Assembly: GCF_001316245.1 (NCBI RefSeq)
Contig: NZ_BBDM01000002.1
Coordinates: forward strand, 62,001 to 126,000
Direction: 5' to 3'
Length of the DNA: 64,000 nt
Source: Vulcanisaeta sp. JCM 14467
GTDB taxonomy: Archaea; Thermoproteota; Thermoprotei; Thermoproteales; Thermocladiaceae
The position numbers were made by a program, and so were the translations under genes. Within the stretch, counting starts at the first letter, position 1; each line of letters begins with the position of its first letter. The notes beneath the pieces are model-generated. The model saw only the letters and a program-made list of their open reading frames with translations. It had not been told where the DNA came from and did not search any database. This document shows positions 44,149-62,515 of this stretch, piece after piece.

Positions 44149-45585
44149 TTGATGAGCATTCCGGAGGATGCTATGATCAAGGCACTTGACCTAGCCTTAA
44201 ACAGTGGCTCTACATATGCTGAGGTTAGGTATCAGGTTGATTCTGTTAGGTTTGTCAATGTTAGGAATGGGACCCTCCAGTCGTTGAGTAGTTATTCCTA
44301 TGGTGGTGTCTCGGTTAGGGTTTTAATTGACGGTATGTGGGGCTTCGCGGCGACGAGTAGTACTGATTGGGACTCAGTTAAGGATGCCGTTGGCAGAGCC
44401 GTCTCCCTGGCCAGGGCTGTGGCTAGGCTTAGGAGGAGGAAGGTTTCCATCAGCCGTGAGAGGCTTGCCAGGGTTAGTTATGACGTTAGTGAGAAGAATA
44501 AGGTTGAGGACTTAACGAATGAGTACCTGGTCAAGTACCTCATCGAGCTTGACAGCCACGCCAGGGTTGAGCCTAGGATTAGGGTTAGGAACCTGTCCCT
44601 GGGCGTGACCATTACTGAGAAGTTGTTGATTACGAGTGATGGTGCTTATGTCAGGAGTAGGGTTCCGAGGGTTTACCTATTTAGTTCGTTGATTGCCTAT
44701 GATCCGCAGGTTGGTAGTGCCCAAAGGAATATTGAGTTCGGTGGCTCGGGTGGTTTCGAGGTGTTGAGCGACGTTGAGGATGAGGTTGATAGGGAGGTCA
44801 GCGTCATTAGGGACGTGCTCGATAAGGCGAGGCCCCTGCCTCATGATGATGTCATGGACGTGGTATTAAGTCCCGAGTTGGCTGGTATAATGGTTCATGA
44901 GAGCATTGGCCACCCGCTGGAGTTGGATAGGATCATGGGTAGGGAGGGTGCTGAGGCTGGTGAGTCCTATGCTAGGCCGGATTACCTGGGTAGTTTTAGG
45001 ATTGGTAGTGAGTTGGTCACGATAATTGATGACCCAACAATACCCAATAGCTACGGCTTCTACCTGGTCGATGAGGAGGGTGTTACGGCTAGGCCCAGGT
45101 ATCTGGTCAGGAATGGCGTGATTAATGAGTTCCTCATGAATAGGGAGTACGCCTCATACATAGGGCTTAGCAGCAACGCAGCGGCTAGGGCCAGCGAGTT
45201 TGATAAGGAGCCAATACCAAGGATGGCCAACACCTACCTGGCACCAGGTAATTGGAAGCCCGAGGAAATAATCAGGGAGACGAGGAGGGGCCTATACATT
45301 GTCTCATACACTGAGTGGAATATTGATGATAGGCGTTGGTTTGGGCGTTACGGTGGTTTTGAGGCTTACTACATCGAGAATGGGGAGTTGAGGTACATGG
45401 TTAGGGAGCCGTTCATCGAGGTTGATACGAAGACGTTGTGGAGCAATGTGGATGCGGTGGCGAACGACCTAAGATTCTTCCCAGGAACCTGCGGTAAGGG
45501 TAATCCCGAGCAGGGAGTCCCTGTTTACCTCGGCGGGCCAACCTTCAGGGTGAGTAATGTCAGGGTTTTGAAGGCTCCGCGTTAA
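44149..45585 (+). CDS. tldD: TldD metalloprotease subunit
   Basis: The 478-residue protein has the TldD zinc motif HESIGH in GIMVHESIGHPLELDRI, and the later FLMNREYASYIGLSSNAAAR and GYVYCR-type end region. TldD pairs with TldE/PmbA to degrade unfolded or modified peptides. Here the partner gene converges tail to tail, with the two stop codons overlapping at 45582-45585, so they are not co-transcribed. Length and motif are complete. Confidence 0.92.
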   Translation: MMSIPEDAMIKALDLALNSGSTYAEVRYQVDSVRFVNVRNGTLQSLSSYSYGGVSVRVLIDGMWGFAATSSTDWDSVKDAVGRAVSLARAVARLRRRKVSISRERLARVSYDVSEKNKVEDLTNEYLVKYLIELDSHARVEPRIRVRNLSLGVTITEKLLITSDGAYVRSRVPRVYLFSSLIAYDPQVGSAQRNIEFGGSGGFEVLSDVEDEVDREVSVIRDVLDKARPLPHDDVMDVVLSPELAGIMVHESIGHPLELDRIMGREGAEAGESYARPDYLGSFRIGSELVTIIDDPTIPNSYGFYLVDEEGVTARPRYLVRNGVINEFLMNREYASYIGLSSNAAARASEFDKEPIPRMANTYLAPGNWKPEEIIRETRRGLYIVSYTEWNIDDRRWFGRYGGFEAYYIENGELRYMVREPFIEVDTKTLWSNVDAVANDLRFFPGTCGKGNPEQGVPVYLGGPTFRVSNVRVLKAPR

Positions 45586-46923
45586 CCCTTCGATAGGTTC
45601 AGGTCCTTGACCAATACGTAGGGTGCCGTGCCTGGTAATGGCGAGTCCCACCAATGGACCGGCTTGGCCTCTTTGCTTGAGTCCATGAAGTTCCTTAGGA
45701 GGATTCTAAAGGAGTCGGCAATCCTCAGTCCACGTAGCCTGGCGCTTAACCTGCCATTCCTCACTAGGAAGGCTGCGTCCCTAATGACCGTTGAGAACAG
45801 CCCATCCTTGACGTTTTGGAACCTCGTGTACCAGTTATTAGTGATTATAACGCCGTTCCCAACCTCCGCGGCTATGGCCTCGACATCACTGGGTAGATGA
45901 CCAGTGCCTATCGCTATATGCCTTGGCCTTGGACGTAACCAGTTGCCGACGGCGTGGCCCGTGCTTACAGTGCCGAACTTAGCAGCAGTCCTATTATTAT
46001 GAAGCAACCCAGTTAGGACGCCCTTCCTTATTATTTCGAGGTTTGTCGTTTTATTACCCTCGTAATCAAAGGACTCTGAGCCAAAGGCGGCTGGGTCGTT
46101 AGATAGGTCTGTTATTGTTAATCCCTCGCTAGCTATTGAATTACCTATGTCGCTCTTCGATATGCCAGACATCTCAGTTATCACGGAATAGGCGTTAAAC
46201 CACACCGCGGTCATTAAACCATATAGGTGCGCAGAGACCAATGCCCATGACCACGTTATACCTACCACTGCTAATGCTCTCCTCAGGTAGGTCCTTAACT
46301 AGCCTGACTAAGTGACCTGCCTCACTACCCGCTTCCCTGGGCTTGAAACCATCAAGCGTGTTTGATATGGATACCGAGGTGGCTGTTAATTCATTTATGA
46401 ATGCTCTAATCGTGAGCGTCACAAACGAAGCCCTATCCTCAAGCTCAAGCCCTGAACTATCGACATAATAAACCTCACTAATGCCAAACGTCATTGCCCC
46501 TGCATTCCTCTGCGAGCCCTCACTGAGCGAGGCTTGTATTGCATCATTTAAACCATCAACTAGTTTATCGGTCTCGCTCTCAATCCTACTGTCGTACTTA
46601 CCGACCAACTGGTTTGGTCTTTCACCATGGGTTAGTGGTACGTAGAATTCATCCTCAGGTATATTACTTAACTCCTTGATTAACTCCTGGATCTTATTCT
46701 TAATCGTGCTTATGTCGTCCGTCGAAAGTGATGCTGTTAAGTATCGTCTTGACTTAGCGACGCACATCATCGTTTCATGGGTAATCCAGCTATTGGCTAT
46801 TGTTGGTTCGTTATTAGCGAACCTAATCATAGACCAACGAACCCTCCTATAAATGATTACGGCATCATCAACTAAGTCCCTGACACCCCTAATAACATTG
46901 CCTAAGTCACTTGGTGTATTCAC
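45582..46923 (-). CDS. pmbA: TldE/PmbA subunit (one frameshift)
   Basis: Two frames (46195-46923 and 45582-46268) join by a one-base shift near 46240, the joint reading YNVVMG then ALVSAHLYGLMTAVWFNAYS. The protein has about 447 residues and lacks the HExxxH motif, as expected for the non-catalytic TldE/PmbA partner. The C-terminal part has NLEIIRKGVLTGLLHNNRTA and the GNWLRPRPRHIAIG segment typical of the family. Confidence 0.85.
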
Positions 46924-57908: not shown

Positions 57909-58610
57909 ATGGATAGGGTAAAGGTGATCTTGATCGTGATGTTGGCGCTTGCCGTGATTCTAGTGATAATTACTGCCTTCTCGGCCTATGAAAGCAATGA
58001 ATTAGCGATTAATTATCAGGAATTGCTCTCTAAGTATGAGACGTTACAGGAGAGGTATGAGGCCTTAAACAATAGCTACACTAAGTTATTAACTAATTAT
58101 ACAAATATGGAAAGTCAATATGGCCCATTATTGTCTCAGTATCAATCGTTACAGAATAATTACTACGCACTTCAACAGGATTACAGCGTATTACAGCAGG
58201 AATATGAGAACGTATCTAACCTAGTAAATGCGGTAATGTATGGTGAATCAGAGTATGATAATGTAACGATAAATTCAGGAGAATTTTATTATATCGGTCT
58301 CGCGTTCGTACCTTATGGTTGCACACTCTACGGTAATATATACGTATCATCGAACAACGGACCTGTCGTAGTATATATCATGGATTGGCTCAACCTTACG
58401 AATTATTACGCGGATCAGGTGGCTGGGTATAATTATCCGTGGTCTTATGTTTATGAGTGGGAGGGTTCGTCGATTAGTGAGTCCATAGTTCTATCGAATA
58501 ATGAGTATAATAATGATTATTACGTTGTTGTTATTTATAATAATAATGTGGTTCCGGTGACGGTATATGAGGATTTCGAAGCAACGCACTTAGTATGCAG
58601 TGGTGGTTAG
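57909..58610 (+). CDS. Membrane-anchored coiled-coil exoprotein
   Basis: The 233-residue protein has one N-terminal helix (VILIVMLALAVILVIITAF), then about 80 residues of coiled coil with Tyr/Gln/Asn heptads (YQELLSKYETLQERYEALNN), and a beta-rich C-terminal domain with Tyr/Asn-rich strands (EFYYIGLAFVPYGCTLYGNI). It would sit outside the cell as a stalk plus head. Its stop overlaps the kinase stop (58607-58610), convergently. Confidence 0.65.
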   Translation: MDRVKVILIVMLALAVILVIITAFSAYESNELAINYQELLSKYETLQERYEALNNSYTKLLTNYTNMESQYGPLLSQYQSLQNNYYALQQDYSVLQQEYENVSNLVNAVMYGESEYDNVTINSGEFYYIGLAFVPYGCTLYGNIYVSSNNGPVVVYIMDWLNLTNYYADQVAGYNYPWSYVYEWEGSSISESIVLSNNEYNNDYYVVVIYNNNVVPVTVYEDFEATHLVCSGG

Positions 58611-60746
58611 GGTTGCTTTAGCTTTTTACTACCCCTGAATCCCCAATATGCGAGTAGTGACATTAGGTAGAGTATGAATAGTGCTATGGCGAGTATTGTC
58701 GTCCATGGGTAGCTGCTGCCATTATCGTGAGTATTACTGCAATGAGCCAGGTCGTTGTGTACCACCTTGGCTTGAGCACTATTGCTATTACGGCCAGTAT
58801 CACGGAGAATATTGAGATCGATAATGCCTGCATCCCAACCGCAAACAATAGGAAACCAACCGAAAATGCTATGGAAACCACCGTAAGAAGATCTTGAGCT
58901 AAATCATGACTTGCCGCTCTTTGTTGTGGTGGTGCTTGTTTCTTCATTATTTTTCTTAAATAATTGGCGACGTTCTTATGTCCATTCTCTTCAGCGTAAT
59001 CCAGGGGGGTCTTGCCAATATTGTCCTTTACATTAATATCGGCTTTATTCTCGATTAAGTACTTAACAATGTCAAGGTAACCATTCTTGGCTGCGAAGTG
59101 AAGTGGGGTCTTACCGGTATTATCTCTCGCATTTATATCTGCTCCATTCTCGATTAAGTATTTCACGATATCAAGGCGGTTTCCTAAAACAGCGTAATGA
59201 AGCGGCGTCATGCCATAAGTGGGGTCTTTTACATTAACGTTGGCGCCCGCCTTAATTAAATCAATAACTTTGCTTAAATCACCATTTTTAACTGCGTCGA
59301 GCAATTGTTGGTCGAGACTTATCGTTGGAGGTGGTTGTGATGGTTGAGGTGATGGAGGTGCTCGTGGAGTGCGTCTTGGTGGAGGTGATGGGGTTATTGA
59401 TGGGGCTAGTTTGGGGAAGATTTTTATGAGGATTCTCCTTCTTAGCTCGGGGATCCCGTGTAGGTAACCCTTTTCAATGGCTTCTCGATCGATCCCTAGT
59501 CTTTCAAGCGTATCGATTATTATGTCGACTATTAAGTCCTCAACCTCATCTAGAGAGCATCCCTGGGCCTCGGCATCCTTAAGCATGTAATAAATGACTG
59601 AGTCTATATGGGCGACAATGCTTGTTTGAGTAAATCCTAGCCTGTTCTCCCTATACTTTATCTCGAAATCTCTGAGCTCTAGTATTCCGTTGGGGAATGT
59701 ACATGGTATTTTTGGCGGGGGTGCCTTTTGCCTAGTTTGGTGGTAGTACTTTTCGAGGGCCTTTGCGAAATCCATTACACTGGGTCTTGGTAATCCTTCA
59801 CAATTGAAGGCTTGGTCGAAGAGGTTAACAAGGTCCTGGGGTAATTCGTTTAAGTTTGGTGCGTACTTAGATCGAGGTCTTATAACAATGTTCCTCTTTG
59901 GACCAAAGTATGGCGATATACATTCTCTAATATTATCTTCAATTGTATTGCTCTCTCTAGTTGGTACTGTACCTGCAAATGGGTGGAAACCGTTCATCAA
60001 CAATTTGAAGATTAATACGGCGAGAGAGAACATGTCCGTATTTACATTCCTCTTATCGGCACCAACTATTCCCTTCAAGACCTCTGGTGCTGTGTACTCA
60101 CCGACGCCGACCTCGCTTGGGTAAATACGCCCAGTGTCTGGGTCCCTTATGAAGAAGGAGTCGGTGTCGATTAATGTTACGAAGCCATCGCTATTAACAA
60201 GCACATTCCTATCATTTAGGTCACCCACGAAGTGGCCGACAACGTGTAGATAACCTACGGCCTTAACCAGGTTAAGGCAACGCCAACCTTAAATAAGGAA
60301 ATATTCCTCTTAATTTCATTTAATCTATCAGGGGGTACGCCAAAATCCCTAAATTTATTAATCCATTCATAATCATAGGGTATCAATATACTTGATAACT
60401 CGACAGCACCTCTTATGTAAGGCATTACGAAGCCCATAAAGTTGCTATTTTCATCACGGACTATCCCGAGCGGCCATGCGAAGGTTATGTGGCCTGGCGT
60501 TGGTTCCTGTGGCTTGGCCTTGATCATTGCCTTGATCTTCTCCTCCCTAATCGAGAGCTCTCTTGGGTCGTTTGTGCGGTAGAGCTTGATTAATGCGTTG
60601 GGTAATTCACGCACTGAGTATATGACTGCCTCGCCACCACTACCAACCTCACCATCAATGGTGACTACATTAGGTAGCTTGTTGGTGCCCAGGTACTCAA
60701 CTGCATACGGCGCCCACTCAACCCTGAACTTACTACTCCTACTCAT
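58607..60746 (-). CDS. Ser/Thr kinase with ankyrin repeats and membrane tail (TerY-P-type operon)
   Basis: From ATG 60746 (overlapping the phosphatase stop by eight bases), the kinase has a glycine loop GEVGSGGEAVIY and a Lys in ALIKLYR. A one-base shift near 60265 leads to GHFVGDLNDRNVL (catalytic DxxxxN), LIDTDSFF (DFG position) and the APE-like APEVL. A Pro-rich linker follows, then three ankyrin repeats (TPLHYAVLGNRLDIVKYLIE; TPLHFAAKNGYLDIVKYLIE) and membrane helices. A further shift near 58720 extends it through ILAIALFILYLMSLLAYW to 58607. About 714 residues. It faces inward with a membrane anchor. Confidence 0.8.
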
Positions 60747-61532
60747 AGGCGCCAACCACCATTGTCAAGTCATCATCGTAGGCCGATGGATACCTCTCCT
60801 GCATGCTCCTGAGTAGGTTTAGCAACTCATCAACAGCCTTACCAACATCACTGCTACTCCTTAAGTAATCAATTACTGGCCTGTAGAATTTCTCGTATGG
60901 CTTCCCATCGATTATCGTTGGCCAAAGACCATCAGTCGCAACGGCGAATGCATCGCACCTACCACTCCTAACCTCAATCGCCCTATCCTAATCGCCTTCA
61001 TGACCTCCGGGCTCGTTATGAATTGGGTCTCGTTGAAGTACTCGCCCTTGACGGGCTCATTGAGGAGCTTGAGGCCACTACCGTCATCAATGATTACATA
61101 GCCATCACCGACACCAACGGAGAAGCACTCATGACTCCTCACGTATAGCGTCATGAATGTTGTGGCTAAGTCCTCAATATCTGCGTTGAGCTCCTTGGCC
61201 CTACGCTCAATGCCTTCCAGGGCAATCCTGAGGACAGCCCTCAACACCTCACCAGGCTCTTTACTCGCTAAGTCATTATTCCTCACGAAATTGATCGCCG
61301 AATCAACGGCGTATCTAGCGCCATCCCTCCCATACCTTGCTGAACCAGCTCCGTCAGCCACGAATACGAATGCCGAACCATCACCCACGAACCACCCCTT
61401 AACCCACTCATTACCCTCCTGATGGTTAGAAACCTGGGGATTGCCGATATATGCATTGAAGAAGTCCTGGAGAGGCTCACCCCTCCTCCTATGGGTAATG
61501 CCGATCAATGATACACCAATTATTTTAAGCAT
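60739..61532 (-). CDS. PP2C-type protein phosphatase (one frameshift)
   Basis: The first frame (60912-61532) has PP2C metal motifs FVFVADGAGSARYG and GVGDGYVIIDD. A one-base shift near 60985 continues EVRSGRCDAFAVATDGLWPT and ends DDDLTMVVGAYE, the usual metal-binding end. About 264 residues. It lies between the VWA and kinase genes, with only 24 bases before it and an eight-base overlap after it. It would reverse the kinase's phosphorylation. Confidence 0.8.
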
Positions 61533-61556
61533 GGCAAGCCCCTTAAGTCTTCATGC

Positions 61557-62515
61557 CTACACAACCTTAATCTGTGCCCAACCACTTATGTCAGGCAGCT
61601 TCTGCGTCTCTCCTGGTCTGCTTGTTGATGTTAGCTTAATGCTCGTTGAGAGCCACTGGAACATTGCACTCCACCTCTGCTCAGTGTCCTCAAGCCAGAC
61701 TGGTGGCCTGGTTGGGTCAACCCTACTCATTATGCAGTCCCTAAGGACCATGAAGCCAAGCACTAAATCGAGCTCCCCAGGCTTGCCAACAATAACGGGC
61801 CATAGGATGAACTTCTTATTATCAATGCCTGTCTTAAGCCTCGACACAACCGTATTATACAAGTCATTACTACAATATTTAGCTACATCGGCCATGGGCC
61901 TCTGGCGCAGCCTATTTATCACCTCATCGCTTAGGTAAACGGGCACTGTTCCTGCGTCCTTGTAGGTATATGCCGTAGGATTGCTCATATTTTGGTAGAG
62001 CGGTTGTTCCTGGATCATTTTCTTGACCTCATCATCAACTACTATGATGTGATTGCCAGGTAGGATTAGTAATTGGTCGGTGGGTGTGAATATGTCTGTT
62101 GGGTATCCATCGGTTATTAGCCAGATCCAGGGCCTGTAGTAATTAATGCCCTGCTCCTTATACTGCTGCTTCCTCCTCTCAACAGCCTCAACAGCCTTGA
62201 GCAGTGCGTGACCCATTGGCGTGAGACCTCCAGGGATTAATAATCCACTTACGTAATCAACATCAAGCTTCTCAACAGGTACGAAGTCCTGGACCAGCCT
62301 AACGCCGTTTTCATCATTACTACCACCAAAGGCCATTATGCAACCTCAACCCTCCTCCTGGCGATATCATCCTTAAGAATCTCCTCCTTAAGCAAACGAA
62401 GCCCAGAGACTAATCTAGAAATCCTTGGTGTCATTGAGCCTGAGACATCAACGAGGAGTAACAATGGTTGCTTAGGCTCCTGAGGATACGGAATCTCGGC
62501 GGGTATTGAGCTCAT
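61557..62515 (-). CDS. VWA-domain protein, TerY-like (one frameshift)
   Basis: ATG 62515 gives [20 protein letters not shown], with the MIDAS DxSxS motif. A one-base shift near 62343 joins it to the frame below with IMAFGG, a [11 protein letters not shown] loop (MIDAS Thr) and [11 protein letters not shown]. The arrangement of MIDAS Asp, Thr and late Asp matches TerY-type VWA proteins. The promoter reads CTTAAATAAT, about 27 bases upstream. Together with PP2C and kinase genes downstream it makes the triad. Confidence 0.8.

Follow-up and report, generated by a model that had tools for sequence, protein, structure and literature searches.

The operon at positions 58607–62515 of the window, by which we mean the whole 64,000-nucleotide stretch of Vulcanisaeta sp. 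JCM 14467 (genome G000) analysed here, is by its sequences a TerY-P triad of the E. coli yegL–pphC–yegI type, since all three of its proteins, and the order of their genes, were tested and fit. We consider it probable that the operon encodes a phospho-switch of this type whose kinase carries, by fusion, a membrane or cell-surface module specific to Thermoprotei. TerY-P triads are widespread and the triad itself is of a known kind; the new part of the finding is a helical domain in the kinase tail. The parts of the locus are as follows:

61557–62515, minus strand: VWA protein of the YegL/TerY family, with an intact MIDAS and a 1-base deletion at ~62337
60739–61532, minus strand: PP2C-type phosphatase, PphC-like, with its metal-ligand motifs present and a 1-base deletion at ~60982
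58607–60746, minus strand: Hanks-type kinase of the TerY-P/YegI type with a composite tail and 1-base deletions at ~60273 and ~58712
59758–60659, minus strand: kinase domain, with VGSGGEAVIYSV, IKLYR, GDLNDRN and LIDTD
59398–59718, minus strand: ~100-residue four-helix domain of the kinase tail (CTFPNGILEL ... YLHG ... IFP)
58993–59304, minus strand: ankyrin repeats of the kinase, after a proline-rich linker
58640–58890, minus strand: four predicted membrane helices of the kinase, the last in frame after the ~58712 deletion
57909–58610, plus strand: coiled-coil neighbour gene, tail-to-tail with the kinase gene, the 3′ ends overlapping by 4 bases

The three triad genes form one minus-strand operon in the order VWA–PP2C–kinase, with 24 bases between the first two genes and an 8-base overlap (ATGAGTAG) between the last two; the minus-strand coordinates thus bear out the single operon and the spacing given in a first-pass annotation of this DNA, and the motifs quoted there (DVSGSM, ADGAGS, DDDLTMVVG, GDLNDRN, and LIDTD) all exist. 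Its gene spans are likewise confirmed, but they had been read through the four 1-base deletions without mention. The MIDAS residues of the VWA protein lie in DVSGSM, the threonine of GGLTPMG, and the aspartate of ITDGYPTD. In Pfam, the VWA domain is sub-threshold (2.5e-4), while the phosphatase matches PP2C_2 (1.3e-34) and the kinase matches both Pkinase (4.4e-11) and Ank_2 (8.5e-30). A second PP2C gene (L222) is found on contig 2 of the same genome, at 148286–148813, ~22 kb past the end of the window.

Family membership is clear for both partners of the kinase. The VWA protein is 45% identical to E. coli YegL over 130 residues (E 4.6e-32), although it carries an insert of ~90 residues relative to YegL, and the alignment reaches the C-terminal WLSxS...S.S.PG motif, conserved across the 58 rows in which it was located; the phosphatase is 30% identical to PphC (E 2e-23). 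A search with the VWA alignment, taking one genome per species, turned up at least 470 relatives. Of these, the best 80 all have DxSxS (80/80), as does the window, and VWA–PP2C–kinase follow in the same order and on the same strand at 72 of the 80 loci, bacterial and archaeal, the kinase being detected by a profile built on the window, G005, and YegI kinases; some of the other eight loci are cut by contig ends. The first-pass proposal of a TerY-P-like triad therefore stands: the VWA protein falls with YegL/TerY rather than with an unrelated family, and the three genes recur together elsewhere, as those 72 of the best 80 loci demonstrate. One Thermoplasmata locus (L055) has four consecutive TerY-like VWA genes ahead of the PP2C and kinase genes.

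Among 398 Thermoproteota genomes, strong VWA matches occur in the window genome, G020, and G005, plus the Vulcanisaeta genome G024, whose contig ends within PP2C; full triads are rare in this set and are found only in the window's family. In a concatenated tree obtained by a quick search, the window pairs with G005, from another genus of the same family (SH-aLRT 100), and the two share a deep branch apart from the rest. Both are long branches, and we are unsure of the exact position of the pair.

The differences lie in the tail of the kinase. Nearly all of the bacterial and euryarchaeal kinase tails compared have a C..H..CPWC knuckle; in the tails of the window, G020, G024, and G005 there is no CxxC, and so no zinc knuckle, and no OB-fold was detected in the window kinase. 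We count the zinc ribbon or OB-fold tail as a variant feature of TerY-P rather than a defining one, because the tail differs among described TerY-P systems (PMC11090510). The first-pass annotation had called both the ankyrins and the membrane tail of the kinase unusual. The membrane tail is not: membrane helices are predicted after the kinase domain in 56 of the 78 kinase ORFs compared, YegI included. The ankyrins are, being absent from every non-Vulcanisaeta locus among the 80 examined (the best 80 of at least 470 relatives), and their number varies between Vulcanisaeta species. The window kinase is unusual in its lost knuckle, its ankyrins, and its undescribed helical domain. The fusion of the latter two is not needed for triad function, because the triad kinase of G005 has neither.

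The kinase is the sole Ank_2 match in the window genome; in this lineage, ankyrins are repeatedly found linked to other kinases too. Hanks kinases of other kinds lie beside ankyrin repeats within the same order (L171 and L172 in G012; L204, 7589-6930 and 8394-7318, in G038), some of the G012 and G038 kinases being apparently fused to the repeats across frameshifts, and in Vulcanisaeta sp. JCM 16159 an ankyrin protein of six or more repeats (L024, 11940-12830) is encoded ~1.3 kb past the triad. Matches of the window kinase in PADLOC and NCBIfam (T4SS Ank effectors, MzaA, mad6, and PD-T4-6) were not taken as membership, since they are at the level of ankyrins or of kinases in general and those in NCBIfam fall far below the curated cut-offs.

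The helical domain was modeled confidently as four helices, with a pLDDT of 94. It has no match in NCBIfam; in Pfam it has none either, whether in the window stretch, for which none is reported, or in a stand-alone copy (L168:755-2194), and nothing significant was found in the PDB by sequence or by fold. It is undescribed and is present in 24 of 397 Thermoproteota genomes, which belong to the same order as the window or to one other family within the class, so that it is Thermoprotei-specific in the searches made. Most of the proteins bearing it (the window kinase; L168, L195–L211) are membrane proteins, with the domain usually at the N-terminal side; some run on into CAP-domain ectodomains (CAP is above the cut-off in L196 and L202), and one, in G038 (L204, 5034-2944), combines the helical domain with two CDC48_N (p97 N-terminal) domains. 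Twin CX3C cysteine motifs precede the domain in several of these proteins, for example CYRDCVKYHGDD..CYSICDALW.

Two further arrangements bear on the origin of the kinase tail: G016, a Vulcanisaeta genome with no detected triad, encodes a stand-alone protein composed of the helical domain, ankyrins, and four membrane helices, and in G038, from another family, a helical-domain gene has both an ankyrin gene and a kinase gene no more than ~3 kb away. Because of these, and because the domain is seen on other membrane proteins, the Vulcanisaeta kinase looks, from sequence comparison, as if a TerY-P kinase had been joined to an archaeal membrane module that already existed. A broader and rather speculative reading is that the helical domain could serve, on the cytosolic side, as the docking unit of a cell-surface signaling network in crenarchaea; kinases, ankyrins, and TerY-P triads would plug into it by fusion or gene linkage. 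Were it true, these archaea would control their surface proteins by reversible phosphorylation through this domain.

The gene adjoining the kinase also points toward the envelope. Its product has an N-terminal membrane helix, a long coiled coil, and a β-sandwich (GOLD/PPC-like) domain, for which Foldseek gave weak GOLD, carbohydrate-binding, and PPC-like matches that serve as a fold hint only. It adjoins the kinase in three species: that of the window, G020 in the same arrangement, and G024 in the direction of the kinase. The β domain is detectably homologous in only five genes; coiled-coil genes in G038, G040, and contig 16 of G000 were not accepted as homologues, being alike in architecture only. 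The link between this gene and the triad is suggestive, but partial and not obligatory, because homologues with the β domain also occur without the triad (G017 and contig 23 of G020). Downstream of the G005 kinase lies a gene whose product likewise has a single N-terminal membrane helix, plus a threonine-rich stretch, and matches nothing in Pfam.

The change in the kinase tail suggests a switch rewired to the cell surface. We infer both that the operon acts as a signaling switch and the steps that lead from its tail to the surface. With a topology predicted from a hydropathy count, the kinase would sit at the membrane, its kinase domain, helical domain, and ankyrins facing the cytosol. The place of the zinc knuckle would be taken by the helical domain, the ankyrins, and the coiled-coil neighbour, which would link the kinase to surface proteins, and the tail, judged by the company it keeps, would receive its input from membrane and surface proteins or pass output on to them. 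A signal at the envelope would lead to autophosphorylation of the kinase, which would then phosphorylate the VWA protein, possibly at the conserved serine-rich C-terminal motif; phosphorylated VWA may change its MIDAS-dependent partner, and PP2C would reset both kinase and VWA. According to PMC13232886, YegI is bound to the membrane and phosphorylates itself, and PphC removes the phosphate; by analogy with this and with the Sulfolobus VWA protein ArnB, a substrate of a Hanks kinase and of PP2A (PMC12852372), we would expect a membrane-bound sensor-kinase reset by PP2C, with the VWA protein as adaptor or substrate. The part that probably receives the signal has here given way to a module of a kind found on archaeal membrane proteins, a natural tail swap that offers a handle on the role of the tail, and the undescribed domain may couple serine/threonine phosphorylation to the archaeal envelope.

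Could the operon instead serve in defence against viruses, a role put forward for TerY-P within CoCoNuTs and for TerY-P-like (kinase–OB) systems that stand alone? A defence role is possible for TerY-P in general: Type II and III-A CoCoNuTs commonly contain the triads, TerY-P-like triads protect against phage (PMC11090510), and the patchy presence of the triad within the genus would suit such a role. Nothing at the window locus supports it, however. PADLOC and Pfam scans of the neighbours found no adjoining McrBC, HEPN, helicase, or other clear effector, the only two PADLOC matches among ten neighbours being at domain level; the kinase has neither a zinc ribbon nor a detected OB-fold, and the adjacent gene encodes a predicted exported membrane protein. 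We therefore regard defence as unlikely here, and the stress and defence link drawn in the first-pass annotation finds no support at this locus.

A slightly poorer candidate is a crenarchaeal regulator of motility or surface appendages of the ArnA/ArnB type. In the crenarchaeote Sulfolobus, the Hanks kinase ArnC adds phosphate to the VWA protein ArnB and PP2A takes it off (PMC12852372), and the window locus does have surface-linked neighbours; yet the VWA protein is far closer to YegL (E 4.6e-32) than to any solved VWA protein (best profile E 7e-6), no FHA domain was found in the operon proteins or the scanned neighbours, and the phosphatase is a PP2C, not a PP2A. The TerY-P switch with a surface-module tail remains our preferred reading.

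None of the three triad genes is open in the assembly, which has four 1-base deletions in them, called relative to the sister strain (G020, Vulcanisaeta sp. JCM 16159, contig NZ_BBDN01000002.1) or to the expected frame. The one in VWA at ~62337 leaves GCATAATGG in the window versus GCAATAATGG in the sister strain, the one in PP2C at ~60982 is at a GGG run, and the two in the kinase are at TTAACC (~60273) and at ~58712, where the last membrane helix is severed; the JCM 16159 copy of this membrane-helix part (L024) is continuous, unlike that of the window. Both VWA and PP2C are intact in the sister strain, and its kinase is frameshifted at another place. Within the window, a pmbA/tldD metallopeptidase gene (45582-46923) is likewise broken into two overlapping frames, and dN/dS between the two strains is 0.08 for VWA, 0.20 for PP2C, 0.04 for the kinase, and 0.17 for the ankyrin–membrane part. 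On this basis, the deletions are most likely sequencing or assembly errors, and the genes are very probably intact and under purifying selection. That the four frameshifts, spread as they are over three genes, are real and the operon is decaying into pseudogenes is highly improbable given this low dN/dS, the intact sister genes, and the likewise split conserved pmbA/tldD, and given that each of the four removes one base, in three cases within or next to a short single-base run, in a 25-contig draft whose low estimated completeness (82%; JCM 16159, 63%), in few contigs each, fits frameshift errors.

Among known systems, several resemble the window locus in part. A cluster in G003, from the same archaeal family (L169, G003:C9, 22-4663), has a VWA, an FHA-bearing kinase, and a PP2C gene in a row with an adjoining ankyrin protein of 498 residues on the opposite strand; compared with the window, its VWA, kinase, and PP2C are of other subfamilies and in another order, and the ankyrins are on a separate gene. 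The Sulfolobus ArnA/ArnB/ArnC/PP2A network shares an archaeal VWA protein under reversible serine/threonine phosphorylation, which for the window is a proposal, and differs in its VWA subfamily, its FHA partner, and its PP2A phosphatase. The TerY-P triads of CoCoNuTs and the TerY-P-like defence systems (Anantharaman 2012; Gao 2020), as PMC11090510 relays them, likewise combine VWA, PP2C, and a Ser/Thr kinase in an operon, but with a zinc ribbon or OB-fold as kinase tail, unlike the window, whose locus also has no nuclease, GTPase, or helicase partner. With E. coli yegL–pphC(yegK)–yegI, the window shares the three families, the VWA–PP2C–kinase order, the MIDAS, the WLSxS...PG end of the VWA protein, the active-site pattern GDxN ... 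LIDxDSF of the kinase, and the membrane helices that follow the kinase domain. Its VWA protein is set apart from YegL by the insert, and its kinase from YegI by the tail: where YegI continues from the C..H..CPWC knuckle into two membrane helices and another long segment, the kinase of the window lacks the knuckle and has the helical domain, the ankyrins, and four membrane helices.
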